This document shows, one piece after another, positions 8,035 through 52,959 of a stretch of DNA of 64,000 nt. Numbering within the stretch: the stretch's first letter is position 1; every line of letters begins with the position of its first letter. Source of the DNA: Arbacia lixula. Taxonomy: Eukaryota > Echinodermata > Echinoidea > Arbacioida > Arbaciidae. The stretch lies in assembly GCA_963669155.1 (NCBI GenBank), contig OZ022597.1:10806811-10870810 (forward strand), written 5' to 3'. The position numbers were made by a program, and so were the translations under genes. Below the pieces are notes generated by a model that worked only from the letters and a program-made list of their open reading frames with translations, did not search any database and was not told where the DNA came from.

Positions 8035-9440
8035 ACCATTATCAAACCCTATATCTTTATCATCATTACCAACACTATTATGATCTTTATCATCATTATT
8101 AATACCATTATTATCTTGATCATCATTACTTATACCATTATGATCTTTATCATTATTACTAATATCATTATGATCTTTATCATCATTACTAATACCATTA
8201 TGGTCTTTATCATCATTATTAATACCATTATGATCTTTATCATTATTACTAATACCATTATGATCTTTGTCATTATTACTAATACCATTATGGTCTTTAT
8301 CATCATTACTAATACCATTATGATCTTTATCATCATTACTAATACCATTATGATCTTTATCATCATTACTAATACCATTATGATCTTTATCATCATTACT
8401 AATACCATTATTATCTTTATCACCATTACTAATACCATTATTATCTTTATCACCATTACTAATACCATTATGGTCTTTATCATCATTACTAATACCATTA
8501 TGGTCTTTATCATCATTACTAATACCATTGTGATCTTTATCATCATTACTAATACCATTATGGTCTTTGTCATCATTACTAATATCACTATGATCTTTAT
8601 CATCACATCCAGTACCATTATGGTCTTTATCATCATTATTAATACCATTATGATCTTAATCATCATTACTAAAACCATTATGATCTTTATCATTATTACT
8701 AATACCATTATGATCTTTATCATCATTACTAATACCATTATGGTCTTTATCATCATTATTAATACCATTATGATCTTTATCATTATTACTAATACCATTA
8801 TAATCTTTGTCATTATTACTAATACCATTATGATCTTTATCATTATTACTAATACCATTATGATCTTTATCATCATTACTAATACCATTATGATCTTTAT
8901 CATCATTACTAGTACCATTATGGTCTTTATCATCATTACTTATACCATTACGATCTTTATCATCATTACTAATACCATTGTGATCTTTATCATCATTACT
9001 AGTACCATTATGGTCTTTATCACCATTACTAATCATCATTTTATCATCATTTCTAATACCATTATGATCTTTATCATTATTACTAATACCATTATGGTCT
9101 TTATCATCATTATTAATACCATTATGGTCTTTATCATCATTACTAATGCCATTATGGTCTATATCATCATTACTAATACCATTTTGATCTTTTTTATCAT
9201 TACTAATACCATTGTGATCTTTATCATTATTACTAATACCATTATGGTCTTTATCATCATTACTAATACCACTATGATCTTTATCATTATTACTAATACC
9301 ATTATGGTCTTTATCATCATTACTAATACCATTATGATCTTTTTTATCATTACTAATACCATTGTGATCTTTATCATTATTACTAATACCATTATGGTCT
9401 TTATCATCATTACTAATACCACTATGATCGTTACCAATCC
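8035..9440. repeat. 30-bp minisatellite, about 46 units
   Basis: The unit consensus is CATCATTACTAATACCATTA plus TGATCTTTAT (30 bp). Variants differ at a few fixed positions (TGATC/TGGTC, CATCATT/CATTATT/CACCATT). Because 30 is divisible by three, stop-free frames open on both strands for hundreds of codons. Only repeats such as ITNTIMIFI are encoded, so I treat those frames as artefacts. A short deletion disturbs the register near 9030-9045. Confidence 0.95.
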
Positions 9441-14795: not shown

Positions 14796-14997
14796 ATGGC
14801 GGAAACTGTAGATGATCCGAACATGAAAGATGCTGGAGCTGGAGATGTGACCACAGATAAGGAAGTGGCTGTAAAAAGCAGTGACGACATTGGGCAACCT
14901 TTCGAGAATGGTGACGGCGTAGACATGGAAGCTTCCCTAGACACAGAGGAGGAATTTGGAGCTGATACTGCAGCCGGAGATGTACAAAATGTCTTGA
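14796..14997 (+). CDS. ARHGAP1: ARHGAP1 exon 1: start and acidic N-terminus
   Basis: ATG at 14796 in the context AACATGGCGG. The peptide [18 protein letters not shown] and what follows are rich in Asp, Glu, Gly and Ala. The donor is A|GTAGGT, phase 1. Reading on past the donor would stop five codons later. The site was chosen because its phase fits exon 2. Confidence 0.75.
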
Positions 14998-17900
14998 GTA
15001 GGTTAAGTTAGCTTCGGCCTCACAATACGTGTACGTAGTTAGTGCATGCAGACCGGCTGCATGCAGTGCAGTTAGTACAGTGCATGTATAACGCAGCTGT
15101 TTGACACAGTTCACCTAATTCGTGCTCCGGAGCAGGAGCACGGTTATCCTGCAGGCCAATAGTTACGGCATCGCCAGTGGCCCAAAACTAGCTTCATTTT
15201 TTTAGGCTATAGTGCTCCACATTTTATCAGTTTTTTGCGATATTGAAAATAAATCAAACACGTCATAATAAAGTAGAATTTAGTTTAAGTCTATTAAAGT
15301 AGGAAAATGTGAAGTATTCTAGCCTATAAACTAGCTAGATCTAAATTCTAAGTAGAAATGTAATTCTATATCATTGAATTGATATTGAAGTTTTAATCAT
15401 ATCAAATCATTGTACAAGTAGGTCAATGTGAAGTTTATGCATTATTGAAAATATGTTGAATATAGTGATTATAAACTAGATCAAGAATCTAGGCCTAAGT
15501 CAATATTTAATTAATTAATAGAGTGACTCTCACAGGAAAAATTGACATGACATATCATCAACATTCAAGTTTTAATCATCATTGTGATTGTGCAAGCGAT
15601 TTGTGTGAAAGAGGGTGACCCCACATCATGAAGAAAGGGTTATTATTTCCAAGAAAGTGAAGCTTGCATCACACTAGTGCAGTCTCTGCATGCATGTAAT
15701 GCCCGTGCTAATCAGCTCATTACCCTGCGGATCAGCCGGCCGTGCGTGGTACTTGACGTACATGGAGAATATGCGAGTTTGCGATTGATGAAGTTCCGTC
15801 CCTATACATTTGGGCTTTCACTGATCCTAACAGGACCTAGAATCTAAGTTTTACAAACACTTCCCTCTCTCTATATTTGTGTTTTCATTGATTGTAAATT
15901 TTACATAGACAAGCTTCTTATCTGCTGATTTGCATCATCTATGTACAAAATGTATTACTTAACTTACTTTACTTTACGATGATTGTAGGACTTGACCTGT
16001 TCATCAATCATAGATTCAATCGCAAAAGGTTGTACAGTTTCCTTGACTTATCACATTAAAATACATGCATGTGGGTCAGGACAGTGTGTATTCTTTCTCA
16101 AAACCATGTCTGATTGTGCCAAATCATGTTTACGAAGTGTAGGTTGTATGTCATCCTCTGTCTTGAATGTAAATTCTGTATCCTAGAAGACTCGAAGGAT
16201 ATAAAGATGTACATTTTGTTATTTTCTCGTTCTCAGAATAGCTCTTTTAGAGCTATTCCGAATGAATAACTGAACAGTCCTTTTAAGAAATTTCTCATGG
16301 TGCACTGTAAAACTCCTTTTATACTTCTCACCATGTTACAACATTTCTTACTTTCTGAGTTCCTCTCTGAGAAGCTAATTTCAGAGCTATTCTGGAAGAA
16401 TTACTCTTCAGTCCTTTTAAAGGGATGCATGTAGTTCAGCCTAAAGTGAAGTTGGTTTCAATAAAAGCAGAAATATGAAAGAAACATATTAGTGAAGGTT
16501 TGAAGAAAATCTGCCAAAGGATTTATTAGAAAGTTATGATCTTTTGAAATTTCAATTTTGTGGTGTCACATGTGAAGTGCTCTTCCATATGTTGAGTGCT
16601 GTATGATTCCACGAATTGCTCTCTTTCTGTTTTTAAAGAAGGAATATTTTTATTCGTAGAGGTTTGTAAAACCCATTTTTCATGATGTATCAAATGCACA
16701 GGTAAAATGATATCCTTTTGAGGAAATTGACATTTTCCAAAAAAATTGTACACAACATATATGGGAGAGCACCTCGCACGCGGCGTCACAAAATCAAAAC
16801 TTTAAAATATCATAACTTTGTTATCCTTTGAGGGATTTTCATCAAACTCTCATTAATATGTTTCTGATATTATTGAAACCAACTTAATCTCGGGGTGGAC
16901 TATCCATTTAAGAACTTTCTCATGGTGCACTGTGACACTCCTTAGAAACTTCTAACCATGCAAGAACTTTCCTTCAAAGAACATGCATAATGTTGAGCAT
17001 GATCCTGTTTGTACTCACCAGAGCTGCAGTCTCCATCGGATGATGCCATTGCAACCATGGGGGTGTCAGAAGCACCGCAGTCGCAGGGGTCAAGAGGCGT
17101 GACCGACGCCACAGCCGATCAAGCCATGGAGCCTGATAACTATGAGGACATTGCCAAGCACAATATCATTCAAGTTGGAGGTAGGTTGGGGTATGATGAA
17201 CTTGTGATGCATTTGCTTTTGTATTCATAGTTTTAAAGGGCATATATACTGTACTGGGAAGGCGAAAAAGCCTTCAAAATTTAATTGTTAGCAATCTTCT
17301 TGCCAATGGTCTTAAATTCATGTATTGCCTATTTTAGAAGCTTGCTGAAAGTTATTTGCCCTCAAATGATCCACATATGGAGTAATTAATGATTAATGAT
17401 TAAATCCTCAAAATGTTCAGCCCCAACATTTCGAGGATTTGTGATTTAATCACTCATTACTCAAAATATAGATCATTTGAGGGCAAATGACTTTCAGCAA
17501 GCTTCTAAAATAGACAATACATGAATTTCAGACCATTGGCAAGAAGATTGCGAACAATTACATTTTGAAGGCTTTTTTGCCTTCCCAGTACAGTATATGC
17601 CCTTTAAAGGGGAGCAGAGGAAGGTAATCTTGAACGGAATTATTGATCTTAAGATTTTGAGTAGGTTTTAGACGGTTCGTCCTAAACCGCCGCAGTTCCT
17701 GTAGCCTACAGCCCGAGACTGCAAATCGCAGTTCACCTCTCCGAACGGTTTGCACAGAGGTCAGTGAATGTCTGCGGTAAAGCAAGCAGTGTGTGCAAGA
17801 ACAGCGCCACGGCTGCTCGCTGCAATACAGTATATGAATGTAGACTATGGATGCTGCATTTCAAACATAAACATAAATGAGACTCTTCGGTATTTGTTTC

Positions 17901-20900
17901 CATGTTGTCGTGTCTTGATCCGTGAATTACAGCTTGTATGGTTAAGTCACTGCCCAGTAAGCAGCCTAAAATTTCTTTGTAAAATTAAAATAACCCCAGA
18001 AAGCCCTTTCACTAAAATGAATGAGAATAGTTTTCCACCTTTCCTGAAAATGTTTGTGAAGCTATGACTGAAATTTCAGGTATACTGCTGATTCCTGCCG
18101 AGTTTCATGACTTGAGCAAATGGGGCAGCCTGTATTTAAGTGTACATGTAAAACAATTATTATTTTGTTGATGTTTGTTTCATTTTTTTTTTGTCTGCAG
18201 GAGATGACAGCGCTGGAAGAAAGCTGATCCTGTTCCATTGCAGCCGCCTGCCGCCAAGTAAAAGTTACAACCAGATGAGGCTGCTAGGGTAAGGACTAAA
18301 ACTTACACTTGCACTGTGGTTGTGTTGTGGTGTAGTAGGGACTAAAACTACACTTACACTGTGGTGGTGTTGTGGTGTAGTAGGGACTTTAACTACACTT
18401 ACACTGTGGTGGTGTTGTGGTGTAGTAGAGACTATAACTACACTTACACTGTGGAGGTGTTGTGGTGTAGTAGGGACTAAAACTACACTTACACTGTGGT
18501 GGTGTTGTGGTGTAGTAGGGACTTTAACTACACTTACACTGTGGTGGTGTTGTGGTGTAGTAGAGACTAAAACTACACTTACACTGTGGAGGTGTGGTAG
18601 TGTAGTTGCACTTGTCTACTTTGGCAAAAATATATGTATTGCTTCTTTATGGCTGACTGAAGATCTCAAGGTCTAATCGATCACAGCCAGCAAAGAAAAT
18701 CTCAACAATTGTTTGTGTTCGCGCCACTCAGCACATACGGTACGTAGAGATATCTTCAGGGCAGCGAGAGCCCAGCCGGCCGCATCGTACTCACACGACA
18801 AAGCTGTCACCCACCTCGTAAATGTGAGGTTGCCCATCAGAGCTTGGAAACTTGAACAGCGAAACCGCTGGATTAGTTCGTTCACAAAGTGGGGTTGCAC
18901 TCCATTTACTATCGTTTCCACTGAGCGGTAGATCGCTGTAACGTACGTGCAAAACAAATAGATGCATGGAACATCAAGATAGTCGATGTTCCGTGCGACA
19001 TATTGATTATATGCATTTTTCTCAAATCACAGAAACGTATGAGACCTCTCAACAAAATGATCGATATTCAATTCTAGTACCAAAACAACGAAGCATTGGT
19101 TTTGTAATGCCTGGAAGTCCCCTTTAAAGACTTCGTACCTTTATTTCCTTGTAGACATTTTGGGTGTGAAGACCACCTGTTCATGAAGATTGTTTTTTCA
19201 CACTGAAACGGCCGGGAACTACCGGTATGTATGTTGAGATTGACTACAGCTTGGTCTGACATGCGATTACATAATGTTGCATAATCTCTGAACAGAGTGT
19301 CCGATTTTGTCAAAACTTGGGGTCAAAAGTTAGGAGGCGCTTCAAAAGAAGAATGTCACCCTTGAGCTTAGCAACGATAATTTTCTTTCTCATGGTTATT
19401 GTCTTTGTCCAATGGTTTTCTTCCTGTAGATTCATGAAGGAGACCGTAGGGAACTATGTTGAGAGCGATTACAGCTTGGTTATCACCCTTGGTCCAAGTA
19501 CTGGTTATTCTCTTTCTCATGGTTATTTTCTTTGTCCAATGGTTTTCTTCCTATAGATTCATGAAGGAGACCGTAGGGAACTATGTTGAGAACGACTACA
19601 GCTTGGTCATCACCCTTGAGCCTAGCACTGGTTATTCTCTTTCTCATGGTTATTTTCTTTGTCCAATGGTTTTCTTCCTATAGATTCATGAAGGAGACCG
19701 TAGGGAACTATGTTGAGAGCGATTACAGCTTGGTCATCACCCTTGAGCCTAGCACCGATATTCTCTTCTCATGGTTATTGTCTTTGTCCAATATTATTCT
19801 TCCTATAGATTCATGAAGGAGACCGTGGGGAACTATGTTGAGAACGACTACAGCTTGGTCATCACCCTTGGTCCTAGCAGTGGTTATTCTCTTTCTCATG
19901 GTCATTGCCTTTGTCCAATATTATTCTTCTTATAGATTCATGAAGGAGACCGTAGGGAACTATGTAGAAAACGACTACAGCTTGGTCATCACCCTTGGTC
20001 CAAGTACTGGCTATTCTCTTTCTCATGGTCATTGTCTTTGTCCAATATTATTCTTCTTATAGATTCATGAAGGAGACCGTAGGGAACTATGTTGAGAACG
20101 ACTACAGCTTGGTCATCACCCTTGGTCCTAGTACTGGCTATTCTCTTTCTCATGGTTATTGTCTTTGTCCAATATTATTCTTCCTATAGATTCATGAAGG
20201 AGACCGTGGGGAACTATGTTGAGAACGACTACAGCTTGGTCATCACCCTTGAGCCTAGCACCGATAATTCTCTTTCTCATGGTTATTGTCTTTGTCCAAT
20301 GGTTTTCTTCCTATAGATTCATGAAGGAGACCGTAGGGAACTATGTTGAGAACGACTACAGCCTGGTCATCTTCCTCTATGGCCTCAACAGGCAGAACAG
20401 ACCCAGTTGGAAGATGCTGGTACAGGCCTACAGAGATCTGGAGAGGAAGTAAGTAAGCCAGCTAAAGAGTGGCGAAGCAGTGTCGTCACTTCCGTTGTTC
20501 TGCAGGGCCCTGTTGCATAAAACATACCATTGATGGTAACTCTGTCATCAATGGTAACTACCATGGTAACATCACTCACCAGCCAATCAAATTCAAGGTT
20601 CCCAGAGAAGTTGCCATTGGAAGCAAAGTAACCACCAATGGTAAATTTTATGCAACAGGGCCCTGGTGTGTGATTCTGAACAACAACCCCGAAGAGAAAA
20701 ATTCACTGGTCTGACATTGTCTAGATGGCTAGTGTAGGCACTCCCAATGACAGTCCCTGCTATGATCACCGCTGCTTGCTCTACCCACATAGTTTAGAAT
20801 CTGTTGTCTTGACAACATGCTCATCTGACGTCACACTTCCTTACCCTACAGAGCACCAAAGGGTGATGTCATGTGAGCATGTTGTCGAGACAACTGGTTC

Positions 20901-23900
20901 TAAACCATGTGGGTAGAGCAAACAGCGGAGATCACAGCAGGTAAACATTGGAAGTGCCAGAAACAAGTCTGCTAGGCAATGTCAGACCGGTGAAACTCTC
21001 AATTCAGTGATGTTGTCGAGAAGCAGAAATGTACATGGATATGATGACGCCACTTCAATACTATATTGTCAGCCTTCTGGAAAACATATGAAAATGAAAT
21101 GCACATTGTGTTGAATTAATTTGTATTTGTACATGAATGTTCATTGTAAAATCACAAACTATTCAGTGAGATTGTAAATGAGTGTCATATTTTAAAGAAC
21201 ATTTTTAGAAATCAGCACTTTGCTATTAAAGGCCCTCCAAAAAATCACTCAGCCCGTAGTTCCTGAGATTACATCATAAAATGGTAGAAATAAGTTGAAA
21301 AATAGACAAAGTGTATTTTACGAGAACATCACATGTTTGTGGACAATACAAACTGTTCACCTCATTGTTTGACAGTTGCGACAAAGATTAAATAGCCACC
21401 CTACTTTTGATTGGGCAATAGCACCTTAAAACTGCTATTGACCGGTGAATAGTACGTTTTCTTTTGTGGCGACTAGCATGTGTGATGAAATTAGGTCAAC
21501 CCTAATCAAGGTTATGGGGGGGGGGGGGGGCACGTAATGGCCCCCCTTAATATGTCACTCAATCAAAGATACGGCTGCATGATTTTGTGATTATTCTTTT
21601 TTTGCAGTGTCGCACAATTTTTTATCATAAACAGCGGATAAACTTTGTGTTGTTTCAATATTTGCACTTAACTCAACATCCACTAACACTTTCTTTTATC
21701 AATGTCCATAGAAAGACGTCACTTCTTTATCACAGAGTACTTCTGTTACAGTGATACATGTACATGTACAGTTCACGTTTCAAATTTGTTTACTTTTTTA
21801 GCGAGGAGGGCCAAAGGTAAACCAGAAGTGTCAACTTTTGTTCATTTTAGCTTTATTTGCTGTCCTGTGCTTTCTTTGGGATATTTATTTCAAACATCAT
21901 GCATACAGACAGATAGCAACCCACATTTTCTTAAAAGAGAAAGAAAGAAGAAATCTGAAGCTAAGAAATATAATTACCATTACACATTTAGATTTGCTGT
22001 CTGTCACATGTTAGTATTGTTTGAATATTCTTCAAACTCTATGATTTATTTTATTTATTTTATGTGTACAGTACTATTTGTATTTCGAATAATTACAGAT
22101 CAATTGCCCTGTACTGGCTGCAATTTATTGCAGTCAAATTCAGCACCATGCATTTCAACACATTGATTACAATCACTTACTACAAACATTGGAATTGTAT
22201 ACCTTGGGCTTAAAGGTAGCCCATCCCTTTTGCAGACCTAATTCTGAAAGTTCCCTGACTTTGTTATCATTTGAGAGAGAGTGGTTATATGACCTTTCCC
22301 TGGAATCGACAAAGCATAATATTAAGTTTTAAGGAAATAATCTTCGATAATTGATCACGCTTTCTTTTCTGTACCACAAAAACAGTCAAATCTCATTGAA
22401 AATTAGTTAGATTTTCATTTATTCTACGGGAGTTATAGTACTTCTGACGTTACAATACGGTGCTAAATATGTACAGATTTTCATGAAGTTTGCAGATTTT
22501 TGTAAAAGAGATGGGCCATCTTTAAATCAACATTGTGATGACTTTAAAAAAAATGAAAACAGTTGATTCCTTTATTGAATTCAATATATGCATTTTTTTT
22601 CCTATACTTAGTTTTCACTGAGGCCTAAATTTGATTCTCTCAAAGTGTTTTTTATTTGATGATGCATCAACTTTGCACAACATTTTAAAGGGAATATAGT
22701 GTACTGGAAGAAAAGCCTTCAAAAGGTGATCATGAGCATTCTTCTCAAAATGTTTTGGCCGAACACTTTGGAGATTTATGATTTAATCACTAATCTTCAA
22801 ATGTGGATCATTTGAGGGCAAATAACATTCAGCAAGTTTCTAAAATGGACAATACATGAATTTAAGACCATCGACAAGAAGATTGCTCATGATCAACTTT
22901 TGAAGGCTTGTTTGTCTTCCCAGTATAGTTTATTCCCTTTAAGGTATCTCCCAGCATGCATTTGGCAACAGGTTTTCTTTTCTGTCCTTGCTCATTAACT
23001 CTGTGCGTTCCAAAGGTGTATATTGGCAACAGTGATACACACAGATGACATGTCCATCAAAAAATATCTGAAAATGACTCTGTTCATGAGGGGATCACTT
23101 TGATCTCACTGTAGGTTTGTGATGAGTGGGATTGTGTGAATCATTACCCTGGGCCATGTTGCATATAGGTGTTTCAATTATTGTAACTTGCCATCAATGG
23201 TAACTACCATGGCAATATCAGCCGTTATGAGAGCTCATTGGCTGTTGCAATGATTGAAAACCTATATGCCTGATGTGTATTAACCTCTTGCTGTGCTGTG
23301 TCTCACATCCATCAAGTCAAGGGTAGAAGCTCGCTACAATTGTGGAAATAATCTTCTCTTCTGTCTGAGCTGTAAGTTTTGTGACTTGTGCTGCAGGCTC
23401 GCGAATTTAACACATAAAAATAGTGCTGCATAATATTGAATGCGTTTGCATTGCAAAAATATTCACAAATTTTTGCTGAGCATCGAGATAGTAACACATC
23501 CCAGTTGATGTCTGTTTTCTACCAGTCTAGTCAGTCTACAATGTAGAGCAGTGAGTAGCGTGTGAGCAATTGGAGAAGTTTATAGTACCGGTAGCTTGAG
23601 GGCGTCAATTGCGAAGAGAACAACCAGGGAAAATGTCTAACAAAATGATCAATTCACCCTGGAGTTTGATATTGATCGTAACTCTCTTTGTGATGAGGAT
23701 TTATGATAGATATCATTTGTGTGATTCATAGATCAGTTGTACGAATGGTCTAGCAATCGTATTCATGGAGTAGTTCTTCGTGCAGTTTTTTATGCTCAAC
23801 CAGAATTCCACTTCAATCAAATGGAGGGGAGATTTTGAGTAAACAGCCCAAATGAGGTGGCATTTTGGTGAGTGATAGACATCTGGAAAAATCTGTTCGG

Positions 23901-26900
23901 TCTGGAAGTTCATGGAGAGATAAAGGAAGGCCGGAAACATCTGTTAAACACCTCAAATCATTTAACTTTCTAGTTTGATGATCACTTATGGTTATTTATA
24001 ATTCTCTTTGTAATTTTGCTGATTTCTTACGAGTAGGATGCAAGTTGATGGTGCTAGAAAGTAAAGACCAGACTTTTCTGAACTTTTACATTTTTTGCGG
24101 GGAATTTATTTTGGTGCAAAGTACTTTACACATGGTTGTAGATGTAGTTTATTTTTATTTAAAGGTTTGTATTTGGGGTGTAATTTTGAACCACATTTAG
24201 CAATCATTATCTTGTTCTTGTCTCTCTGTAATTACCTTTGAGTGGTTACACATGTACAGAAAAAAATATACAATTTTGACTACTTTTCCATTGATCCTTT
24301 ATGTACAATGCTTGATGTAGACTGTACATACTTACAGTTGAGGCCAAAAAATTCAAAGAAAAGTTAACACTTGCCAAACATCATAAAATTTACTGTATCT
24401 TATAAAATATTTGTGCTATCATGACAAATTTGATATCGAACAAATGAGTACATTTATGTCATGCCCCTTCACCACATTGTTTTGTCAACTGGAGCTGAAA
24501 AATATTTAGGTGTCATTATTTCCCAAAAAATATTCATATTTTAGACAAATTAAAAATTAAAATTTGACAAAAACATTTCATATTTGTGTTAGTTACTTCT
24601 CAACACAAACATTTCAGATTACACCTTTTTGTTCCGTGGTGATATATGATAGAATATGTAATATAAATCATAGATTTTGACATTTATATATCTCTATGAA
24701 ACGATGTTTGAAAATATGATAAACAATAGAATACATTTAGCATGAAAAGTACTTTTTTTTCTTCAAAGAAAATTCCACCTGAAATATAATCTAATCTGAA
24801 CGGCATCCCAATCATGTGAAAGAGCTGAATACGCTCTTTCATTTGATACCAAACTTGTCACGGTAGCATTTATATTTCTGAAGATATAAATTTTACAATG
24901 TTTGACAAGCGAACAAATTTTACTGAATTCTATGGGTGTATGTAAACTTTTGGCCTCAACTGTACATGCACGATTATCGGTTAGTAGTAATACCATAAAA
25001 CAAATAGAAGGTGGCCTCCTGTGTACAATTTAATTAGAAGGCACTGTTGGGCGCTAGCACGGTAAGTGATATTGGTTCTGGAGTGGAGATGGTGCACATT
25101 TGTAATGCTTTGCAGTGTGCAGTGTATGCTAGGTATGCGCTGCTAGCCTGGGCTCCAAGCTGCCGGACATTTCTGATCCTAACTGATTAATAGAGTCTAG
25201 TACTCTGAAGGTGCGTCTTCATTAGCCCGATCAGACGAAATAGTGAGCTATTTTGCTGATCTGGGGAACTAGCCTGAAGTTGCAATCGCGTCTTCATTAG
25301 CTCGAAACTCGGGATGCATAAATTATCCCGATGTTCGCACATGCGTAGTGTGCGACGGGAATAGGCCACGACTGTGTGGCTTCGGTTGTGACCTCGCATT
25401 CACGCACGTATAAAAACTTGACGTAAACAATGCTCGTGCGCGTGGTGCGTGCTAGGGTCGGAAAATTTTGGGGCTAATGAAGACGCTCCGAGCTAGCTCG
25501 AGCTATTTCGCGAACTAGCTGGAGCTAGCTCCATCTTTTCTTGAGAAATTTTCTCGACCAAATAGCTCGCTATTTTGCCTGATCTGGCTAATGACAACGC
25601 AAATAGCGAGCTATTTCGTGATCTGGCTAGCTAACCCGATCAGAACAAGCTCGCTATTTCGCCCACATCGGGCTAATGAAGACGCCCCTTAAGACTAGTT
25701 TCTGTGTCATCCTGCTCTTTCCTTGGCTCAGGCGAGCCAGAGAGGAAATTGAGAATGATTAGTCTACTGCAGCCAGACCCCTTCATTGAAAAGCGTGGTG
25801 TAGAAATGCCAAACAGACTGGAAGCCAGGCTAATGCTGTGGTTTAGGTATGAGAGTGGTTGAGGGAGGAGGAAGCTTAAGGGTTTGTTTCATGGTAAGGG
25901 AAGTATCGGTGCAGCATGGCATTGACACCATGTACTTATTGTGAACCCTCTTGAGGTTGTCTGTTTTGCCTCATGTTGCTCTCTTTCTTTCTCTGTCTGT
26001 CTCCCTCTCTCTCTCCCTCTCTGTCTCTGTCTCTCTCTCTTTCACTTTCGTTCTTTCTCTCTCTCTTTCACTTTCGTTCTTTCTCTCTCTCTCCCTCCCT
26101 CTCTCCCTCCCTCTCTCCCTCCCTCCCTCTCCCTCTCCCTCTCCCTCTCCCTCCCCCCCTGTCCCTCTCCCTCTCCCTCTCCCTCTCCCTCTCCCTCTCT
26201 CTCTCTCTCTCCCTCTTCCTCTCCCTGTCCCTGTCCCTGTCCCTCTCCCTCTCCCTCTCTCTCTTTCTCTCCCTCTTCCTCTCCCTCTCCCTCTCCCTCT
26301 CTCCCTCTCCCTCTCCCTCTCTCCCTCTCCCTCTCCCTCTCTCCCTCTCCCTCTCCCTCTCCCTCTCCCTCTTCCTCTTCCTCTCCCTCTCCCTCTCCCT
26401 CTCCCTTTCCCTCTCCCTCTCCCTCTCCCTCTCCCTCCCTCTCCCCCTCTATCTCTCTCCCTCTCTTCAGTGTATGTCTCTCTCTCTCCCTCTCACTCTG
26501 TCTGTCCTCCCTACCTCCTTCCTCCTCTAACTCCCTCAAGTGAAGGAATACATGATGTTTGATGGGCTGTGTAGCTGTGTTTATTGTACATCCTTTCCAT
26601 GTTTTTATATATATTTTGTTTTGCTCTCTCTCAGGTACAAGAAGAACCTGAAGGCACTGTATATCGTGCACCCGTCTCAGATCGTCAAGATGATCTGGGG
26701 TGTCTTCCGCCACCTGGTCAGCACCAAGTTCAGCCGGAAGGTTACCTACGTCCACTTCCTGTCCGAGCTGGAACAGCAGCTGGACCTTAAACGTGTCGAG
26801 ATTCCCCAGCTCATCAAAGAGTGCGTCCAAGTTTTTTTCATCATTCCTAACTCTTGTATCCCTCCGCAACATTTACGTCAATTTTGCTGATGCATACTGA

Positions 26901-29900
26901 TACCTGTGCATATGAACCCACTCAAATAATTCAGTATTTGCTTCCTCCTTTTTTCTGGCAATTTTGCACATCAAGACCTAGTGAAAATACCGGTAAGGGA
27001 ATTTTATGAAAGATGGCGTTCTGGCATGTGATTCGCTAATCACAATATTCGTATTGCTTAGCAGAGCATGTCATCATATTGTCTTTGCCTTAGCTAGGGG
27101 TGTTGGGATCGTCTACCATGTCAAAAAACTGCAATATTTCGGCTTTTTCAGTGAATATGAAGTATGTTTTAAAAGCTCCACAGCAACTTTCTTGCTGACG
27201 TGCATCAGTCATGTTTTTATAATGATTATGGTTTATGAGCGGGGCTACTGTCATAATATCACACAAGGAGTACAGTACAATGCAAAGGTCATTTGAAGTG
27301 ACAGGAGGTACTTTTGTAGCGGCTGTATTATTTCTTTTCAATTCTTTGACTCATGAATACAATTAAGAGAATGAAAGCCTCTTTCACACACCAGAAAAAA
27401 AAGTGAGATTGCAAGATATTTGCGTGTGTGAACTTTGCAGTTCTTCTTGCGATTTTTCAAAACCCTCACAATAATTTGCCGAGTGCTGCATGTGTGAATC
27501 TGTTGCGGATTGAAAATCGCTTTATATATCCCACAATGCACAGCGCATAATGTAAACATCTATTTGCTAGTCTGTCATCTCTTCGCAGATTCCCTTCGCT
27601 TGCACGCGTGCAGTACCATATGGAAACACGGAAAGACAAAGTGTTGTGTTTTTCGCACGATATTGTTACTATTTATTGTTTCTAGTCATAGTGCCCTACG
27701 GGTCACACAGTATAGGGCTAAGATTGATTGAAAGGACAAAAGGTTGTGTATTTTGTAGTAACCTGAATTGATTCTGTTTGTTGTTCAGTCATAATGCCAG
27801 GCTGGTTGCTCAGTACAAGGCAAAGATTAGTCATAACCTGAATTATTTCTGTTTGTTGTTTTTAGTCATGATGCCAGGCTGGTCGCTCAGTACAAGGCAA
27901 AGATTAGTCATAACCTGAATTATTTCTGTTTGTTGATTTAGTCATGATGCCAGGCTGGTCGCTCAGTACAAGGCGAAGATTAGTCATAACCTGAATTATT
28001 TCTGTTTGTTGTTTTTAGTCATGATGCCAGGCTGGTTGCTCAATACAAGGCGAAGATTAGTCATAACCTGAATTATTTCTGTTTGTTGTTTTTATTCACG
28101 ATGCTAGGCTGGTCGCTCAGTACAAGGCAAAGATTAGTCATAACCTGAATTATTTCTGTTTGTTGATTCAGTCATGATGCCAGATTGGTCGCTCAGTACA
28201 AGGCAAAGACTAGTCATAAGCTGAATTATTTCTGTTTGTTCTTCAGTTATAATGCCAGGCTGGTCACTCAGTACAAGGCAAAGATTAGTCATAACCTGAA
28301 TTATTTCTGTTTGTTGTCTCAGTCACGATGCCAGATTGGTCGCTCAGTACAAGGCAATGATTAGTCATAACCTGAATTATTTCTGTTTGTTGTTTCAGTC
28401 ACGATGCCAGACTGGTCGCTCAATACAAGGCAAAGCACTCTGTACCACAGCCTGCTTCAACCAGCCCTGATGGTCTTGATCAAAGCACAGAAGTCTTACC
28501 CACTCAGCAATTTGGAGTCTCCCTCGAATAGTGAGTAAAAATCCAGAAAACGAACTTACAGTTTGACGTTAGTTGTGACTTGGGTCCTCCACGATCCCTA
28601 TCTGTGATTAGCACTCTGTACTACAACCCCCTTCAACCAGTCCAGGGCCCCGTTGCATAAAACTTACCATTGATGGTAACTCTGCCATCAATGGTAACTA
28701 CCATAGTGATACCGCTCGAAAGCCAATCAATTCAAGGTTTGCAGAGAAGTTGCCATTGGAAGCGATGTTGCCATCAATGGCAAGTTTTATGCAACAGGGC
28801 CCTGATGGTCTTGGACAAAGCACGGAAGTCTAAACCACTGAGCAGTTTGGAGTCTCTCTCGAATAGTGAGTTCAAAAACTGGGGTGAGATCCTGAAAGCA
28901 AACTTACAGTTTGACATTAGTTGCAACTTGGGTCCTCAACGATCCCTATCTGTGATTAGCACCCTGTAGTACAACCCCTTCAACCAGTCCATTGCCCCAT
29001 TGCATAAAACTTACCATTAATGGTAACTCTGCCATCAATGGTAACTACCATAGTGATACCGCTCGATAGCCAATCAATTCAAGGTTTGCAGAGAAGTTGC
29101 CATTGGAAGCAATGTTGCCATCAATGGCAAGTTTTATGCAACAGGGCCCAGATGGTCTTGGACAAAGCACAGAGGTCTTTCCCACTCAGCAGTTTGGAGT
29201 CTTTCTCGAATAGTGAGTTAAAAAAACGTCGTGGGATAGAGGAAACAAACTTACAGTTTGACGTTAGTTGTGACTTGGGTCCTCAACGATCCCTATCTTT
29301 GATTAGCACTCCGTAGTACAACGCCCTTCAACCAGTCCGGGGCCCGTTGCATAAAACTTACCATTAATGGTAACTCTGCCATCAACGGTAACTACCATGG
29401 TGATACCGCTCGATAGCCAATCAAATTCAAGGTTTCCATAGAAGTCACCATTGGAAGCAATGTTGCCATCAATGGCAAGTTTTATACAACAGGGCCCTGG
29501 TGGTCTTGGACAAAGCACAGAGGTCTTTCCCACTCAGCAGTTTGGAGTGTCTCTTGAATTGTGAGTTCAAAAACCATTGTGGGATCCAGAAAACAAACTT
29601 ACAGTTTGATGTTACTAATAAATACTATTTAGAAAATAGCAAAACTTTCGGTAACACCATGTGGTTGTATTCTTTCGGATAATTGGCCCACTTATGGGGT
29701 GAAGAAAGGAAAGGAAAGTGAAAAGTGAAAAGGAGAGGTGAATTTTTATATTTTATAACACTTACACAAGACTATTTTTAGCTTTAGTTTTCGGTATTTT
29801 AAACCGAAAATGAATGGGATGGAATGGAAGTAGAAGAAGAGGGTGGGTGTTGATGAAAGTTGTGAACTAGTCACAAAGTAGTGATAAAGAGAAAAGAAAA

Positions 29901-32900
29901 GAAAAGAAAAAGAGAAAAGTGTAGAAAAGTTATAGTCAGTTCTGCAACTAACTATAGATTTCTTTCAAAATCTGAAAGAGGGAGTATCAGTCTCGACGTT
30001 TCGGGCAGTTTGCTCTGTCCGTCATCCGGAGAATAACTCGAAGAAACTAACGAGCGCGCCGGGTATTTATGTGATCCGAAGGGATCCGAAATAACCCGAG
30101 AGTGTCCGAAATCAGCCAATAGGAATATAGCGTTTCGGCGCGAATGTGCTGTGTGCACTAGAGCGTGAAACAGCTGAATAGGTGCGAAAGTGCGGCGCGA
30201 ATGCGCGGTGCGCACTGAAGCGCGAAACGGCGCGAAAGCGCGGCGCATTCAATTCCCCGAGCCTTCGGGTAGGTCGTCGTCCCGTGTGCGTTGTGCGTGG
30301 TGGTGCTGCCGGTGTGCGTGGTGAAGAAGTGGCATCCAGACATCGCTGATCACAAGTCCGCTCTCCTGTGGTACCGTGTCGTGTTGAAGAATCTCGATGG
30401 CTTCTCTCACGCGCCGGGTGTGCCAGTGCTTAATGGATGTGATGAGTTCTGCGTTGGACCAGTCGATGCGATGATTCTGTTGCTGAGCATGTTTGACGAT
30501 AGCTGATTTCTCCCACTCGTTCCGTCTAAAGCTGGTCTGGTGTTCCTTGAGTCTGGTCCTAAGGCTTCTTCCGGTTTCTCCAACGTAGAACTGACCGCAT
30601 TCACACGGTATCTTGTAGACTCCTGGTTGAGTGTCCGGCGGCTTCCTGTCTTTGTGGGTGAAGAGCTTGGAGTGCAGCTTACCTGAAGATCGGTGCCTGA
30701 CCTGGATGTTGACGTTCTTGAGAATCCGCTGAATCTTGTGAGAAGCTTGTCCTATGTAAGGGAGAAAAACTGAAGCTAAATGTGGCGGAGGAGGAGTGCG
30801 CGGACGAGGTAGAGATGTCTTCACCTTTCGAGGTGGGTATCCGTTGATGCTGGTGAGCGCTGTCTTGATGTGCTGAAGCTCTTATTGAAGGTGTTCCTCG
30901 TCGCTGATGTCGTGTGCTCGCCGGATGAGAGTACTGGATACTGACTGTAAAACAGAAGGGTGATGAAACGATTTAAAATTGAGGTACCTGTCCGTGTGCG
31001 TCGGTTTCCGGTAGACTTGGTGTGATGCCTTTCCCTCAGCTGTCCTTGTAATGCGTACGTCTAGAAATGGGATGGAAAGATCCTGCTCTATCTCCATGGT
31101 GAACTTGATGCTTGGGTGCCTGTGATTAAGATGGTAAAGAAATTCCTGGAGATCAGTTCTGCTGTGCTGCCACACGACGAAAATATCATCAACATATCTA
31201 ACCCATAATTTGGGGCAGAGAGTCGATGTTTGAAGTGCTGCTGTCTCAAATTCCTCCATGTAGATGTTGGCGACGATGGGGGAGAGAGGTGACCCCATTG
31301 CTGCTCCTTCAACCTGTTTGTAAAAAGAGTTACGCCACTGGAATGAAGTCGAGTTGAGGCATGTGAGAAGTAGATCCTGGATGTGCTCTGGAGACATAGC
31401 TGTCCGTTCTGGTAGGGCGTCGTCTTCCTCTAGTCTTTGTCGGATGATACTGCAGGCTTCTGAAACAGGAACATTGGTGAAGAGAGATTCAACATCAAAA
31501 CTGACAAGCGTATCTGTAGGACAGATTTGAATTGCGTTGAGTTTCTCAATGAAATGCTTGGAGTTGGCGATGTGATGAGATGAGTTCCCAACAAGTGGTT
31601 GAAGAATCGTAGCAAGATGTCGAGCCGTGTCGTATGTCGGAGATCCCCTTGTTGCGACGATGGGCCTAAGTGGCGTATCTGGCTTGTGTATTTAAGGTTG
31701 TCCAAAGATCACAGGGCAGGTTGATGACGAACATCGAAGCTTGAAGTATAACGGCTTGGGTATGATGTCCTCTCGATGAAGTTTCAGCAATTTCTCGTTG
31801 ATTCTCCTTTCTGTAGCAGCCGTTGGATCTCTGGACAGTTTGGTGTAGGTTGAAGTGTTGAGGAGGCTCTCCATCTTGCTGTCGTATTCGTCCTGTCGCA
31901 TGATGACTGTTGCGTTTCCCTTGTCGGCCTTGAGAATGTGGATGGATGGATCCCTACGAAGTCCTTGGATGGCAGCTCGTTCTTCCTTGCTGATGTTGGC
32001 TCTAGGTGGCTTGGCAGTAGAGAGAACCTGTGAAACTTGAAATCTAACGCTGTCAGCTGTTGTCTTGTTCAAAACACGAAGATTAGGCTCAATTTGCTGA
32101 ATGACCTCTGCGAAAGGAATTTTCTTAGGTGCCACAGCAAAATTGAGACCAAGTTGTAAAACTTTTTGTTCGTCTTCAGAGAGGCTCCGGTCGCTGAGGT
32201 TGATGACAGTCTTCCTCCTGGCTGGTGCTGACGTATCCGCTGGTTGTTCTCTAGTAGGGTGCAATGTGCTAAATTTCCGGAGCTGCTTGGCCCTAGACCT
32301 ATTAAAGGTCTTCTTGTAGATTTCGTCGTTAAATGCCCCAATCTTCTTGAAGTCTTCTTGGCTCAGCTTTCCTTGTAGTAGAATCTGGAGTGAGTCGATG
32401 TCCTGGGTAACGACGTGTAGCTGCTCTCTGGTGTGGCTGATCCGTTCTCTGGTGAGGGCCATGCTTGCTTCCTTGACATCTCTACCTCGTCCGCGCACTC
32501 CTCCTCCGCCACATTTAGCTTCAGTTTTTCTCCCTTACATAGGACAAGCTTCTCACAAGATTCAGCGGATTCTCAAGAACGTCAACATCCAGGTCAGGCA
32601 CCGATCTTCAGGTAAGCTGCACTCCAAGCTCTTCACCCACAAAGACAGGAAGCCGCCGGACACTCAACCAGGAGTCTACAAGATACCGTGTGAATGCGGT
32701 CAGTTCTACGTTGGAGAAACCGGAAGAAGCCTTAGGACCAGACTCAAGGAACACCAGACCAGCTTTAGACGGAACGAGTGGGAGAAATCAGCTATCGTCA
32801 AACATGCTCAGCAACAGAATCATCGCATCGACTGGTCCAACGCAGAACTCATCACATCCATTAAGCACTGGCACACCCGGCGCGTGAGAGAAGCCATCGA

Positions 32901-35900
32901 GATTCTTCAACACGACATGGTACCACAGGAGAGCGGACTTGTGATCAGCGATGTCTGGATGCCACTTCTTCACCACGCACACCGGCAGCACCACCACGCA
33001 CAACGCACACGGGACGACGACCTACCCGAAGGCTCGGGGAATTGAATGCGCCGCGCTTTCGCGCCGTTTCGCGCTTCAGTGCGCACCGCGCATTCGCGCC
33101 GCACTTTCGCACCTATTCAGCTGTTTCACGCTCTAGTGCACACAGCACATTCGCGCCGAAACGCTATATTCCTATTGGCTGATTTCGGACACTCTCGGGT
33201 TATTTCGGATCCCTTCGGATCACATAAATACCCGGCGCGCTCGTTAGTTTCTTCGAGTTATTCTCCGGATGACGGACAGAGCACACTGCCCGAAACGTCG
33301 AGACTGATACTCCCTCTTTCAGATTTTGAAAGAAATCTATAGTTAGTTGCAGAACTGACTATAACTTTTCTACACTTTTCTCTTTTTCTTTTCTTTTCTT
33401 TTCTCTTTATCACTACTTTGTGACTAGTTCACAACTTTCATCAACACCCACCCTCTTCTTCTACTTCCATTCCATCCCATTCATTTTCGGTTTAAAATAC
33501 CGAAAACTAAAGCTAAAAATAGTCTTGTGTAAGTGTTATAAAATATAAAAATTCACCTCTCCTTTTCACTTTTCACTTTCCTTTCCTTTCTTCACCCCAT
33601 AAGTGGGCCAATTATCCGAAAGAATACAACCACATGGTGTTACCGAAAGTTTTGCTATTTGCTAAATAGTATTTATTAGTACACTCTCACCATGGAAACA
33701 TTCAAAGAACATTTAGTTTGATGTTAGTTGTGACTTGGGTCCTTGACGAGCCCTATCTGTGATTAGCACTCTGTAGTATAACCCCCTTCAACCAGTCCAT
33801 GGCCCCATTACATAAAACTTACCATTTATGGTAACTCTGCCATCAACGGTAACTACCATGGTGATACCGCTCGATAGCCAATCAATTCAAGGTTTGCAGA
33901 GAAGTTACCATTGGAAGCAATGTTACCAGCAATGTCAATTTTAATGCAACAGGGCCCAGAATGTTTTGGACAAAGCACAGAGATCTTCCTCCCTCAGTTG
34001 TTTGGAGCATCTCTTGAATTGTGAGCTCAAAAACAGGGGTGGGATCCAAAAAACAAACTTAAGTTTGACTTCAGTTATTGCTTTACTTTTTTCACGGCAG
34101 GTTTCGTGACATTTCATAAATCATTATTCTTGTAATAATCTTTGGAATATTTAATGAGAATTTTACTTTTAGACTAATTTGGACCTAAAAATGTGTGTGT
34201 ATCAGATAATTCATTCAGAACACAAAACAATGACCAATATCAATCCCCTAGCAACTGTCATCAAAGTGTCATTAATAAGGCATGATTCTTCTGGCAGAAA
34301 AGAATTTGTGAGTTGACATGTGTAATGCACACAAATTAATTAAATTCAAATTTGTCCAAAAGTGAAATCTTGTGAAATATTCACAGGATTACTACAAGAA
34401 AACTATTTGATGAAATGTCACAAAACCTACTTCTAAAAAAAATTGACATCCCTTCACTGTATGATGTGTCAATTTCAGCTTTATTTGAGTTGTAACTTTA
34501 TATTTTTGATTATTTATCAAAAGTATCATAGGTTTCTTTTAACTCCTAGTATAAGTTGCATGGAAGAAATCCCATTTGTTATCTGATGTCTTTCCTGCCA
34601 GAACTTGGTGAATGAATGATTGCATGAGTGAGATTTATTTTTTTATTAATTCATTGTCTCATTTTATATTTGCAGTCTACGAGAACACGGGGAGACGGAT
34701 CCCATACCCAAGGTTATTCGAGAAACTGTGGAGTACCTAAAACGAAATGGTGAGAAACTGTTTATTCGCCTTTTTGTCTCGCCTGAGCGAAGTTTGGCTG
34801 AGACCTAGTAATCGCTCTCCCTGTTAGTCTGTTACTAGTGTTAAAGGTTTGGTTTAACTTGCTCTCATTTTTTGTATTTCTGCATCAATTTTGTTCATAT
34901 GTAGTACGAATGATCCTTGGGTAATACCACCTGTGTATTGATGAGAATGATGAGGTCAAAGGTCATCTAGGCACCATTTGAAATATTTGAAAAAAAACGT
35001 AGTCCTGTTAATTGATTGCAAAATCAGGCGAGACACATGGTTTGCCAACCACCTTGTTTCTTTTTTTTTTTTTTCCCGGGAGGGGGGGGGGGGGGGGGGG
35101 CAAACGATTTATAATTTGATGTATGCTTTTTCACACACAACTTTATGGAAAAGATTGATTCCTTCATAAAAAAACAGAAAAGTGGTTAGAATTATACAGC
35201 ACACAACATATGGGAGAACACCTAGGAAGTGCTGTCACAAAATATGAACTTAAGGAAGTCATATTGTCGTCAAACCTTTGCTGTTATGTGGCTTCAATAT
35301 TTCTGCTATAATCAAAACCAATTGGACATCAGGGCGTACTTTCCCTTTGAGTATGACTTTGTTCTTTTTCTTCCAACTTGTGCAGGTCTGAGAACGGAGG
35401 GCTTGTTCAGACGATGTCCAAATGCAATAACGGTCAAGAAAGTGCACGGCATGTACAACAAAGGTAATACTGGTCTCTCGGTTTGGTGGAGTACTGCAGA
35501 ACTGCCATGTCTTCTTGATTTCGCAGGAGATTCCCAAAAAATAGACCAATATTATTGCAATGGATTTCATCACATCACCCAATCTCCCTAATTATTGATA
35601 GATTATTGTCATTAGGTTGTATGCATTTGACAGACATCTCCTTGATTTCTCATGAAATTTCCCCAAATCTTCCAGATTGTTGAAGTTCAAATTTGGGAGC
35701 TCTCTTACTCCACGACCTATTATTGGTTGCAGCGAACTTGCCAATTTCCAATTTTGGGGTCAACAACTCAGCCTAGTGCCAAAATATACTAACGACATTC
35801 AATGAAAGGAACTATGCGGCATATATTGTTTACTCTAATTTAATGTACAGATAGAATAGCTAAGCCCAGTATACAGTACATGGTCACCACCAAGCCGTGC

Positions 35901-38900
35901 GTACGCCATGGCCTTATATTTTTATGTCGGCCATTTCCCATGAGGCATTGCAGATTTTGTCTTGTCCGCTGCCATCAATTGGTAGTAAGCAAATAATCAA
36001 CGTTGGTGAAGGTGATGGGATGAACTATCACTTCCGAGGCAATCTGGATGTAACTATCTTTCCGAAGCGCAGCTGAGGAAAGATAGCGTATACATTCAGA
36101 TCGCCGAGGAAGTGATAGTTTGTCTCATTGCCTGAAACCAAAAGTTGATTATTTGATTTATATTCCACATCTGAAACCAACTTTCTATACCAAAAATGAC
36201 AATTTGACGTACAAAAGTAATGTTTACTTCTCTACCTAACCCAGAGCCGCTGCCATGGGGAACACGCGTTAGGATGCGCGTTGATTAGGACGCACATTAT
36301 GACGCGCATTATGACGCGCGTTTGGACGCGTTAGTGGGAGCTGATAGTCCGAGTGTAACGCACTTTTATTTCACGCGTACTCAAAATATTAATCACGCAT
36401 TAGGACTGTGAGGAGTGAAGAGATCAGCGAAACCAAAAAGTTCTATCACCTAGAGTGTAACGAACTTTTATTCTCAGGTGATCTGATAGGAAAAACTACG
36501 CCTCATCAAGTGATCAACTCTTGACCAATTATATAGCAACATTCTTAGTATGTGGAATATAAAGCATTATATCACGACAGTGTAAAAGGAAAGACGTCCC
36601 ATCGCGCAGCCCCACTCAGATTTTGTTTGCAGTCATGTACGCTTCCAGTCTAGTTCAATAGGATATCAGACTGGAAACAGACAAACTGCAAACAAAATCG
36701 GGATGTTACTGCGTGGTGCATTATGGGATAACTTGCTTGGTGTGTTTTATCTACAATGATATCAATATATGTTTATATGGTCTGGAATCTTCCATTTTGT
36801 GACAGGGGAGCCAGTGAATTTCGCTGATATTGGAGACATCCACGTTCCGGCTTTGCTGCTGAAGGCCTTTTTCAGAGAGCTGCCGGAACCGATCATGACC
36901 TTTGACCTATACGAGGATGTCCTGAAAGTTCACAGTGAGTTCGGAGTGTGTGACTCCACCCCAGTTACGACTAATTTGCAATTGATTGATTTTCTTTCCC
37001 ATCAATCTATTTAAACAAAAAAATCCTTCATGCAGCCATTATGGTATTGACTTACTGATTGGTTGGTGTACTGATTCTATGACTGACTTTAACCCTGTAT
37101 CTGAAAAAAATATGTTATTTTGGTCTAAATTTGGGACATTTTGTTACTTTATCCCTAGACTTGTAAGATATATTCATTATTCTGGTCCAAATGTACCACT
37201 GTTCCTGCAACTTAACCCATGATTTGGTAACGATAGTTATTGCTCTGGTCCGAATTTTGAACCTTAAAATCACATACATTTTGTTTGATTCAAATCAAGG
37301 GCTGTAATTTGTGACTTGATCTTTAGATTTAGAAAACTGTCCATACCAAATCTCTGACTTATTCTGTGATTTCCTTTTATTTCCCAAATTGCCTTGCGTA
37401 GACTAGGCCAAATCTAGGACCATTTCTATGACTTTGTCCCTCGATCAGTGATATCTCCATGTTGGTCTAGTCCAAATCTAGGACTGTTTCTGTAGGACTG
37501 TATTCCTAGATCTCCAAATTAAACCTGTTGTACTAGTTCAAATCAAGGACTGTTTTGTGACTTTATTACTAGATCTCCAAAATATACCTGTTGTACTAGT
37601 CCAAAGCAAGGACAGTTTTTGTGACTTTATTACTAGATCTCCAAAATATACCTGTTGCACTTGTGTAAATCAGGGACTGTTTTTGTGACTTTATTACTAG
37701 ATCTCCAAAATATACCTGTTGCACTAGTTCAAATCAAGGACTGTTTTTATGACTTTATTACTAGATCTCCAAAATATACCTGTTGCACTAGTTCAAATCA
37801 AGGACTGTTTTTGTGACTTTATTACTAGATCTCCAAAATATACCTGTTGCACTAGTTCAAATCAAGGACTGTTTTTGTGACTTTATTACTAGATCTCCAA
37901 AATATACCTGTTGCACTAGTTCAAATCAAGGACTGTTTTTGTGACTTTATTACTAGATCTCCAAAATATACCTGTTGCACTAGTTCAAATCAAGGACTGT
38001 TTTTGTGACTTTATTACTAGATCTCCAAAATATACCTGTTGCATTAGTCTAAATCACAGACTGTTTTTGTGACTTTATTACTAGATCTCCAAAATATACC
38101 TGTTGCACTTGTGTAAATCAGGGACTGTTTTTGTGACTTTATTACTAGATCTCCAAAATATATCTGTTGCACTAGTTCAAATCAAGGACTGTTTTGTGAC
38201 TTTATTACTAGATCTCCAAAATATACCTGTTGCATTAGTCTAAATCACAGACTGTTTTTGTGACTTTATTACTAGATCTCCAAAATATACCTGTTGCACT
38301 TGTGTAAATCAGGGACTGTTTTTGTGACTTTATTACTAGATCTCCAAAATATATCTGTTGCACTAGTTCAAATCAAGGACTGTTTTTATGACTTTATTAC
38401 TAGATCTCCAAAATATATCTGTTGCACTAGTTCAAATCAAGGACTGTTTTGTGACTTTATTACTAGATCTCCAAAATATACCTGTTGCATTAGTCTAAAT
38501 CACAGACTGTTTTTGTGACTTTATTACTAGATCTCCAAAATATACCTGTTGCACTTGTGTAAATCAGGGACTGTTTTTGTGACTTTATTACTAGATCTCC
38601 AAAATATATCTGTTGCACTAGTTCAAATCAGGGACTGTTTTTGTGACTTTATTACTAGATCTCCAAAATATACCTGTTGCATTAGTCTAAATCACAGACT
38701 GTTTTTGTGACTTTATTACTAGATCTCCAAAATATACCTGTTGCACTAGTCCAAATCAAGGACTGTTTTTGTGACTTTATCCCCAGATCTCCAGGACAAC
38801 TCTGACCGGGCTGCGGAGTGCAAGGTGTTAATACATCAAAAGTTACCTGAGCAGAACCGAGCCATCTTCATCCATCTCTTCAAGCTACTCAGAGAGGTAC

Positions 38901-47253: not shown

Positions 47254-47279
47254 TTTGCAAAAATTTAACTATATAGGAC

Positions 47280-47405
47280 CTATGTGATAGAGTACGCGCG
47301 ACCCCGTTGGCTAAGATTATGGTGCACGCGCAACCCCAATGTCCCAGCTAAGATTAGTGTGAGGGTGTAGGTTGGGGATAACTCGGGTGGCTGTCGCAAA
47401 GGGAA

Positions 47406-47470
<65 letters not shown>

Positions 47471-48200
47471 CTTACAATATGATATTACGTTTTGCTGGGA
47501 TTTTGATTGACTGATAAAGAAACATTTCACTAACAGAATCTACATGAAATTTCAACAAAAATCAACTAGGAAAATAGGACTTGTTAAAAGGCTACGTGTA
47601 ACTAGTGACGTCACGCATGAAAGGCAGGAATAAAAGCATGACGAGGTGGACTCTGGACTCGTGTACAGGAAGTCGACCAACCGAGTCATAATGCGAAGAG
47701 AAAGAACGCCATTTTTATGAAACATATATCATAATACGTGCTGTATTATACTACGCTGTATCAGGGAGGTAGATACACGCGCAACCCCAATGTCCTAGGA
47801 TTAGTATGAGGGTGTAGGTTGGGGATAACTCGGGTGGCTGTTGCAAAGGCAACTCTTTCTTGGCTTACAATTTGATATTACTTTTTGCTGGGATTTCGAT
47901 TGATTGATTTTCATATTAAGAAACACTTTCCTAGCAGAATCAACAAGAAATTTCAACAAAAATACATCTTACAAAAATGGGACTTGTTAAAAGGCTATAC
48001 TGTATGTGTTACTAGTGACGTCACGCATGGAAGGCAGGAATAGAAACATGACGAGGTGTATTCTGGACTCGTGTACAGGAAGTCGACCAACCGAGTCATA
48101 ACGCGAGGAGAAAGGAAACCATTATAAAAGAGCAGGTACATGTATCATGATACGTGCAGTACTATACTACGCTGTATCAGGGAGTTAAATACAGGTTGTA
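47280..48200 (+). promoter_or_regulatory. Tandemly doubled TRIM promoter region, CRE motifs and TATA box (copy 1)
   Basis: Two related units (about 47280-47720 and 47760-48190) share CGCGCAACCCCAATGTCC, GGTTGGGGATAACTCGGGTG, GTGACGTCAC (47605-47614 and 48015-48024), ACTCGTGTACAGGAAGTCGA and the CTGTATCAGGGAG end. The second unit ends with TATAAAAG (48123-48130). GTGACGTCAC is the palindromic CRE bound by CREB/ATF factors (known motif). Transcription start is inferred about 30 bp past the TATA box. Confidence 0.55.
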
Positions 48201-48527
48201 AATTGTTGAAGCACAGGGAAATGGCTGGTGCTATCATTTGAGCTGGCTTCTAGTAGATTGACACGACATCGACTTCGTTTGACTAAAACTGTTGTGGCCA
48301 AAAGATTTCAACAGAGACGGAATTTGTATTGGTCTTCTTTCAAAGACATGCAGTAGCTGTCAGTGCCGGGGATTGGAACGATACCCGTTTTTTGTACTGA
48401 ACGGCCGCCGGACAATTCAGTGAAATTTAACCAAGGTTGAAGAACGCCTTACAAAAACGTGGGCTTACAATCCCCTTTTTCGGAAGTTTAAACTCAAAAC
48501 AGCTTTGTTTCTTTTCAGCTGATCAAG
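48155..48527 (+). other. Probable 5' non-coding exon of TRIM copy 1
   Basis: From the inferred start after the TATA box to GATCAAG|GTAAGA, a strong donor at 48528. The matching acceptor TTTTCGTTTCAG lies at 49899-49910, just before the TRIM start. Both sites are conserved in copy 2 (donor after 57619). The 5' boundary is approximate. Confidence 0.55.
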
Positions 48528-48599
48528 GTAAGATCAATCGACGGCTCCTTTTTTGATAGAAAACGTATATACATATATACTATATAAAGACGATCATAG

Positions 48600-52915: not shown

Positions 52916-52959
52916 TCCTACTAATCACGTTAATCTTGCACTAATGCAGTTCTTTGACG

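Follow-up and report, generated by a model that had tools for sequence, protein, structure and literature searches.

An ARHGAP1-like gene with tandem arrays at five splice junctions

The window analyzed here is a stretch of 64,000 nucleotides from the echinoid Arbacia lixula (NCBI GenBank assembly GCA_963669155.1, contig OZ022597.1, positions 10,806,811 to 10,870,810 of the forward strand), and all positions below are counted from its first base. On its + strand lies an ARHGAP1-like gene, in which five tandem arrays each have one end at a splice junction. In our hand-built model, the gene consists of 11 exons (E1 to E11: 14796-14997, 17022-17180, 18201-18288, 20317-20448, 26635-26820, 28399-28530, 34676-34749, 35386-35463, 36806-36934, 38787-38896, and 40328-40633), with a coding span of 14796-40633, GT-AG boundaries in all introns, and an open frame of 531 amino acids that is unbroken when read through the exon-proximal copies of the arrays. 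The donor of exon 5 was picked via the reading frame and is the least certain junction of the model. The encoded protein has CRAL-TRIO and RhoGAP domains (RhoGAP Pfam E 2.7e-42), and its top match among solved structures is Rho GTPase-activating protein 1 (6r3v, E 3e-105). A CT-rich tract of 500 bp (25979-26507) precedes exon 5, with about 130 bp between its end and the acceptor.

Tandem Repeats Finder (TRF) returned 57 rows for the window and recovered all five arrays. Together with the gene model, it confirms the arrays that an initial annotation of the sequence had placed at splice junctions of this gene. The junctions touched, all on the + strand, are the E3 donor (18288/18289), the E4 acceptor (20316/20317), the E6 acceptor (28398/28399), the E6 donor (28530/28531), and the E10 acceptor (38786/38787); we call the corresponding arrays A3, A4, A6a, A6b, and A10. 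Array A3 (18289-18606; TRF 45 bp x7.0, 92% matches) has its first unit beginning at position +1 of the E3 donor and contains six decoy GT sites; it has no exon bases in common with the real copy. Units of A4 (19357-20371; about 127 bp x 8; in TRF 19380-20371, 127 bp x7.8, 93% matches) comprise the E4 acceptor and the first 55 exon bases, with seven decoys. Those of A6a (27758-28435; 76 bp x 9; in TRF 27759-28435, 76 bp x8.9, 91% matches) comprise the E6 acceptor and the first 37 exon bases, with eight decoys, one of which has lost its AG. The units of A6b (28436-34083) hold the last 95 bases of E6, the donor, and about 80 bp of intron, and the array includes one real donor and four decoys (motif starts 28857, 29204, 29552, and 34012). 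Array A10 (37460-38793; TRF 64 bp x20.9, 92% matches) repeats the E10 acceptor with seven exon bases (ATCTCCA) and has 20 decoys. The earlier claim that the units include the exon-intron boundary itself thus holds for A4, A6a, A6b, and A10 and fails for A3, which merely abuts its donor.

At the exon end of each array stands the real copy, and unit alignments bear out that only this exon-proximal copy runs on into the exon, as had been noticed before. The unit lengths differ (45, 127, 76, about 175, and 64 bp) and the sequences are unrelated: one unit per array gave zero matches in the window outside its own array (blastn, word 7, E 0.05). The spread of a single repeat family, which the initial annotation had already dismissed, is rejected by this absence of cross-array matches. 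Mean unit likeness within an array is 89-91% (A3, A4, A6a, and A10), with 19 identical unit pairs in A10 and two in A3, and the homology at unit joints, judged by eye, is 0-2 bp. Old, decayed copies lie on the + strand beyond the intron-distal ends of A4 (19211-19256), A6a (27662-27722), and A10 (37289-37446, two matches). A trimer higher-order repeat is supported, in one haplotype, for A3 (lag-3 P 0.031) and A10 (P 0.002), and this repetition of multi-unit blocks fits unequal exchange. As a property of all arrays it was rejected (A4, lag-3 P 0.66; A6a, 0.17; the test covered A3, A4, A6a, and A10). Growth solely from the exon end was likewise rejected as a simple model, as neither A4 nor A10 has a steady gradient of identity toward the real copy.

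Array A6b carries two kinds of insertion. The decoy units contain a miniature inverted-repeat transposable element (MITE), whose single insertion was amplified along with the A6b units and interrupts the exon sequence in the decoys; TRF accordingly reports the array as 347 bp x3.3 (28464-29614, 88% matches), that is, a unit of about 175 bp plus the MITE. The array is further interrupted by an element bearing a reverse transcriptase (RT) gene (29613-33681, - strand), beyond which it resumes and reaches about 34083. The RT-bearing element has inverted arms of 1,207 nt (29613-30819 and 32475-33681) that are complementary at about 99.75-100% (99.75% by BLAST), and its insertion looks recent. Pfam detects RVT_1 only, and the element is likely Penelope-like. 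The inverted ends of the MITE (TTGCATAAAACTTACCAT...) have 11 matches with at most three mismatches on both strands, including those at 10054, 20513, 28653, 29000, 29347, and 33808. A 29-base pattern of the MITE had zero matches in the genome_contigs and viral_contigs collections, and a literature search with short MITE strings gave zero papers.

Placement of the founder units

Merging of the TRF rows by hand left nine arrays within the gene. All five arrays with units of at least 40 bp touch a splice junction, versus none of the four short-period arrays (units of 2, 6, 12, and 23), of which the one with a unit of 23 sits within the RT insertion. A founder unit dropped at random on the gene would touch a boundary with probabilities of 0.037, 0.094, 0.062, 0.119, and 0.052 for the five arrays, and all five would do so by chance with P = 1.3e-6 (P = 3.1e-6 when the gene length excludes the inserted RT element). 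Counting the two exon-6 arrays once, with the larger value, gives a four-founder P = 2.1e-5. These values support the conclusion that the arrays lie at junctions much more frequently than expected of founders placed at random.

A linked pair of arrays in exon 6

The two arrays of exon 6 have a common exonic breakpoint at 28435/28436 on the + strand (AAAG/CACTC): A6a units stop at 28435, and A6b units start at 28436. The eight A6a joints carry the filler ATTAG (7/8) or ACTAG (1/8) where exonic and intronic portions of the units meet, and in all four A6b joints found ATTAG stands ahead of CAC. In the gene as a whole, ATTAG occurs 1.16 times per kb, array joints counted in. Because breakpoint and filler coincide, we regard the two arrays as linked rather than independent, and the sequences suggest that they stem from one origin. 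The independent tandem growth at five boundaries that had been proposed for this gene hence assumes too many events. Most economically, all of exon 6 (132 nt, in frame) would have been duplicated in tandem once together with its flanking sequence; each extra copy may then have lost one half, so that those upstream retained only the acceptor and those downstream only the donor.

Decoy splice sites

With the old, decayed copies at the array edges (four matches) set aside, 34 of the 35 decoy acceptors still have their AG (A4, 7/7; A6a, 7/8; A10, 20/20) and all 10 decoy donors their GT (A3, 6/6; A6b, 4/4). Splicing at any of the 35 decoy acceptor positions leads to an in-frame stop, and beyond the real E3 and E6 donors the coding frame hits a stop within two codons; because of these stops, the decoys are not coding. 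A coding constraint on the decoys themselves was rejected on the same 35 acceptor positions and on the neutral look of the A6b decoys described below. The decoy sites of A4 and A6b resemble the real site closely. In A10, all 20 decoys read TAG versus CCCCAG at the real acceptor, and all six A3 decoys have a weaker-looking context, GTGTA/GTAG (GTAGGG or GTAGAG), versus CTAGG/GTAAGG at the real donor. Selection for splice-site clusters had been listed among the possible causes of the arrays. We found no evidence for it, given that the A3 and A10 decoys all differ from the real site and that every decoy acceptor leads to a stop.

Substitutions in the exon-derived parts of decoys

We counted distinct differences between the exon parts of the decoys and the real exon; A3 (0 exon bases) and A10 (7) are too short for this comparison. 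Synonymous changes make up 6 of the 7 differences in A4 and 7 of the 11 in A6a, and the pooled 13/18 exceed the share of about 0.27 expected with a transition weight of 4 (P 1e-4). Taken singly under transition weights of 2 to 6, A4 gives P 0.001-0.003 and A6a gives P 0.01-0.03. With the changes common to all decoys of an array dropped, 12/17 are synonymous; read in the two wrong frames, 2/18 and 4/17 are (one change falls outside a full codon). In A6b, whose decoys are split by the MITE, 11 of the 33 distinct changes are synonymous, as under neutrality (7/25 without the changes found in all four decoys; 4/20 among private changes). The difference between A4 plus A6a and A6b is significant (Fisher's exact test, P 0.010; P 0.011 without shared changes). 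In the unit tree of A4, the real copy groups with decoys d1, d3, and d4 (support 81/91), and in that of A6a it falls within a group of seven rows (74/67). These patterns fit an exchange of sequence between the functional exon and those units that can still be aligned to it (A4 and A6a), which the MITE may have halted in A6b.

Comparison with mirages and other repeats at exon edges

The initial annotation knew of no named phenomenon of this kind. That was mistaken: excerpts of PMC3087553 and PMC3902484, to which the following description of them is confined, treat tandem repeats spanning exon-intron boundaries in amphioxus under the name "mirages," which they trace to a 2002 paper on Adh3 (Canestro et al.). 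Mirages are described there for Adh3, for the globins BflGb6 and BflGb9 (PMC3087553), and for TnC (PMC3902484), and repeats in PGBD5 are likened to them (PMC3902484). Their units measure 150-160 and 157 bp in the globins, 10-72 bp in Adh3, and 60 and 108 bp in PGBD5 (PMC3087553, PMC3902484). They occur on both the acceptor and the donor side, and AG or GT is kept by many but not all units (PMC3087553, PMC3902484). Mirages are further expected to leave regular splicing undisturbed and to vary in length between haplotypes or cells. The mechanism is called unclear in PMC3087553.

The arrays of the ARHGAP1-like gene share this anatomy. They occur on acceptor and donor sides, with four of the five spanning the boundary and A3 abutting it; AG and GT are mostly kept (34/35 and 10/10); and the units vary in length by locus (about 45-175 bp) without any cross-array match in sequence. 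They are a real feature of an already named kind, unusually dense in one gene. Unlike the amphioxus cases in those excerpts, five arrays occur in one gene, both halves of exon 6 were amplified from one breakpoint, and the decoy exon parts of two arrays show a synonymous bias. This bias in the two exon-alignable arrays is what is new here, and it hints at how such arrays persist.

Related repeats are known elsewhere. PMC5941971 likewise deals with a tandem repeat that is variable and crosses a junction; unlike the present gene, it is a single locus, and it is said there to be indicated as affecting alternative splicing. Human genes in segmental duplications have variable internal tandem repeats, which may give rise to novel introns where they lie at exon-intron boundaries (PMC2812944); unlike the present arrays, their units average 30 bp, half lie in coding sequence, and they belong to recent primate paralogs. 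Tandem repeats are more frequent near intron-exon junctions, notably in two green algae (PMC3887541). Among the open-licence papers that literature searches listed, no such echinoderm case was recognizable by title or abstract start.

Origin and persistence of the arrays

We explain these observations (the anatomy of the arrays, the common breakpoint in exon 6, and the synonymous bias in two arrays with none in the MITE-broken one) by mirage-type minisatellites that are tolerated as decoys spliced out with the intron and refreshed by exchange with the exon, and as a whole we consider this explanation probable. A short segment across a splice junction (in exon 3, one starting at the junction) would have been duplicated in tandem by slippage or end-joining and then enlarged by unequal exchange. 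If the splicing machinery recognizes an exon by bringing its two splice sites together, as it probably does under exon definition, only the exon-proximal copy would be near its partner site; we propose that the arrays are tolerated for this reason, the decoys leaving with the intron on splicing. Arrays that can be aligned to the exon would go on exchanging sequence with it, and purifying selection on the exon may thereby filter and refresh the array, so that junction arrays outlive purely intronic ones. Such a longer life could explain why all five arrays are found at junctions.

Several observations weigh against this explanation or against a non-random placement of the arrays. Boundaries are not covered by repeats more often than other positions: 4 of the 20 boundaries are spanned by at least three local copies, versus 60 of 300 random intron points, an equal share (the E3 donor, the fifth boundary, is abutted only in this count). 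Of these 60 points, 48 fall inside the five arrays, taken as wide ranges that include the RT insertion (9,503 bases in total). We attribute the lack of an excess to the amplified arrays themselves, which occupy about 17% of the gene and inflate the coverage; non-randomness is therefore argued from the founder positions, a statistic that concerns one gene, chosen for its striking look. The synonymous bias comprises 18 changes in two arrays and may partly reflect changes in the exon itself after the decoys split off. As A6b is more diverged, age rather than the MITE could account for its contrast with A4 and A6a. No branch of the unit trees reaches the 95/80 support mark, and units farther from the real copy are not steadily less like it. 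The real copies of A3 and A10, which differ from every decoy at the splice site, are partly excluded from homogenization, as are the edges of the globin mirage clusters according to the excerpt of PMC3087553.

The coverage comparison and the choice of the gene also speak for coincidence, that is, for a genome in which minisatellites are common and a gene that happens to carry five at junctions with nothing maintaining them. We hold this unlikely in view of the founder placement (P 1e-6 to 2e-5) and of the split between arrays with units of at least 40 bp (5/5 at junctions) and short-period arrays (0/4). Exon edges might instead break or slip more readily (through R-loops, transcription, or nucleosome edges), with the arrays persisting without selection. 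Such a mutational hotspot would agree with the involvement of both acceptor and donor edges in unrelated sequences, and the joint homology of 0-2 bp (by eye) agrees with break repair. However, direct evidence of exon-edge breakage is lacking, and a hotspot predicts neither the synonymous bias nor its absence in the MITE-broken array, which leaves it somewhat unlikely in our judgment.

The retention of AG in 34/35 and GT in 10/10 decoys, and the stop that every decoy acceptor position would give, could also be read as function, with decoy clusters acting in splicing (by binding factors, slowing the intron, or yielding stop-carrying transcripts) and their sites kept by selection. Yet homogenization alone suffices to preserve the sites, the decoy sites of A3 and A10 are unlike the real ones, and A6b harbors a MITE and an RT element and has neutral-looking exon parts; we judge a function very improbable. 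That the assembler expanded or invented the arrays is scarcely credible. One amphioxus mirage appears aberrantly assembled in a draft genome (legend to Additional file 4 of PMC3087553, from the excerpt), and identical unit pairs exist in A10 (19) and A3 (2), but the average difference between units is about 9-11%, where an assembler would sooner yield identical copies; moreover, three arrays are bordered by decayed copies, and one array contains an insertion.

In lancelets, mirages have so far come to notice in small numbers of genes, as far as the excerpt of PMC3087553 goes. A gene with five arrays, one of them split by a MITE, is a natural test of array persistence: the alignable decoys change like coding sequence, and the split ones do not. 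Should this contrast prove true genome-wide, it would explain the gathering of arrays at exon edges and make mirage-based intron gain testable. Extending the preferred explanation, from mirage-type arrays refreshed by the exon to a general rule, we suggest tentatively, and as possible rather than probable, that junction minisatellites form a self-sustaining class genome-wide and beyond lancelets. Recombination would tie the decoys to a functional exon, selection on the exon would keep the array coherent and let it live longer than intronic repeats, and junctions would thereby come to store decoy splice sites and halves of exons from which new introns and exons could be built.

Other repeats in the window

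A segmental duplication of about 7.5 kb (47260-54775 and 56375-63992) has main pieces that are 91-94% identical. Each copy holds a RING/B-box (TRIM-like) gene with a 21-bp coding repeat array, and in the second copy this gene is split into two overlapping frames near 59303-59558. Outside the ARHGAP1-like gene, a minisatellite at 8053-9433 (30 bp x46) has long open frames on both strands, as expected because its unit is a multiple of three.

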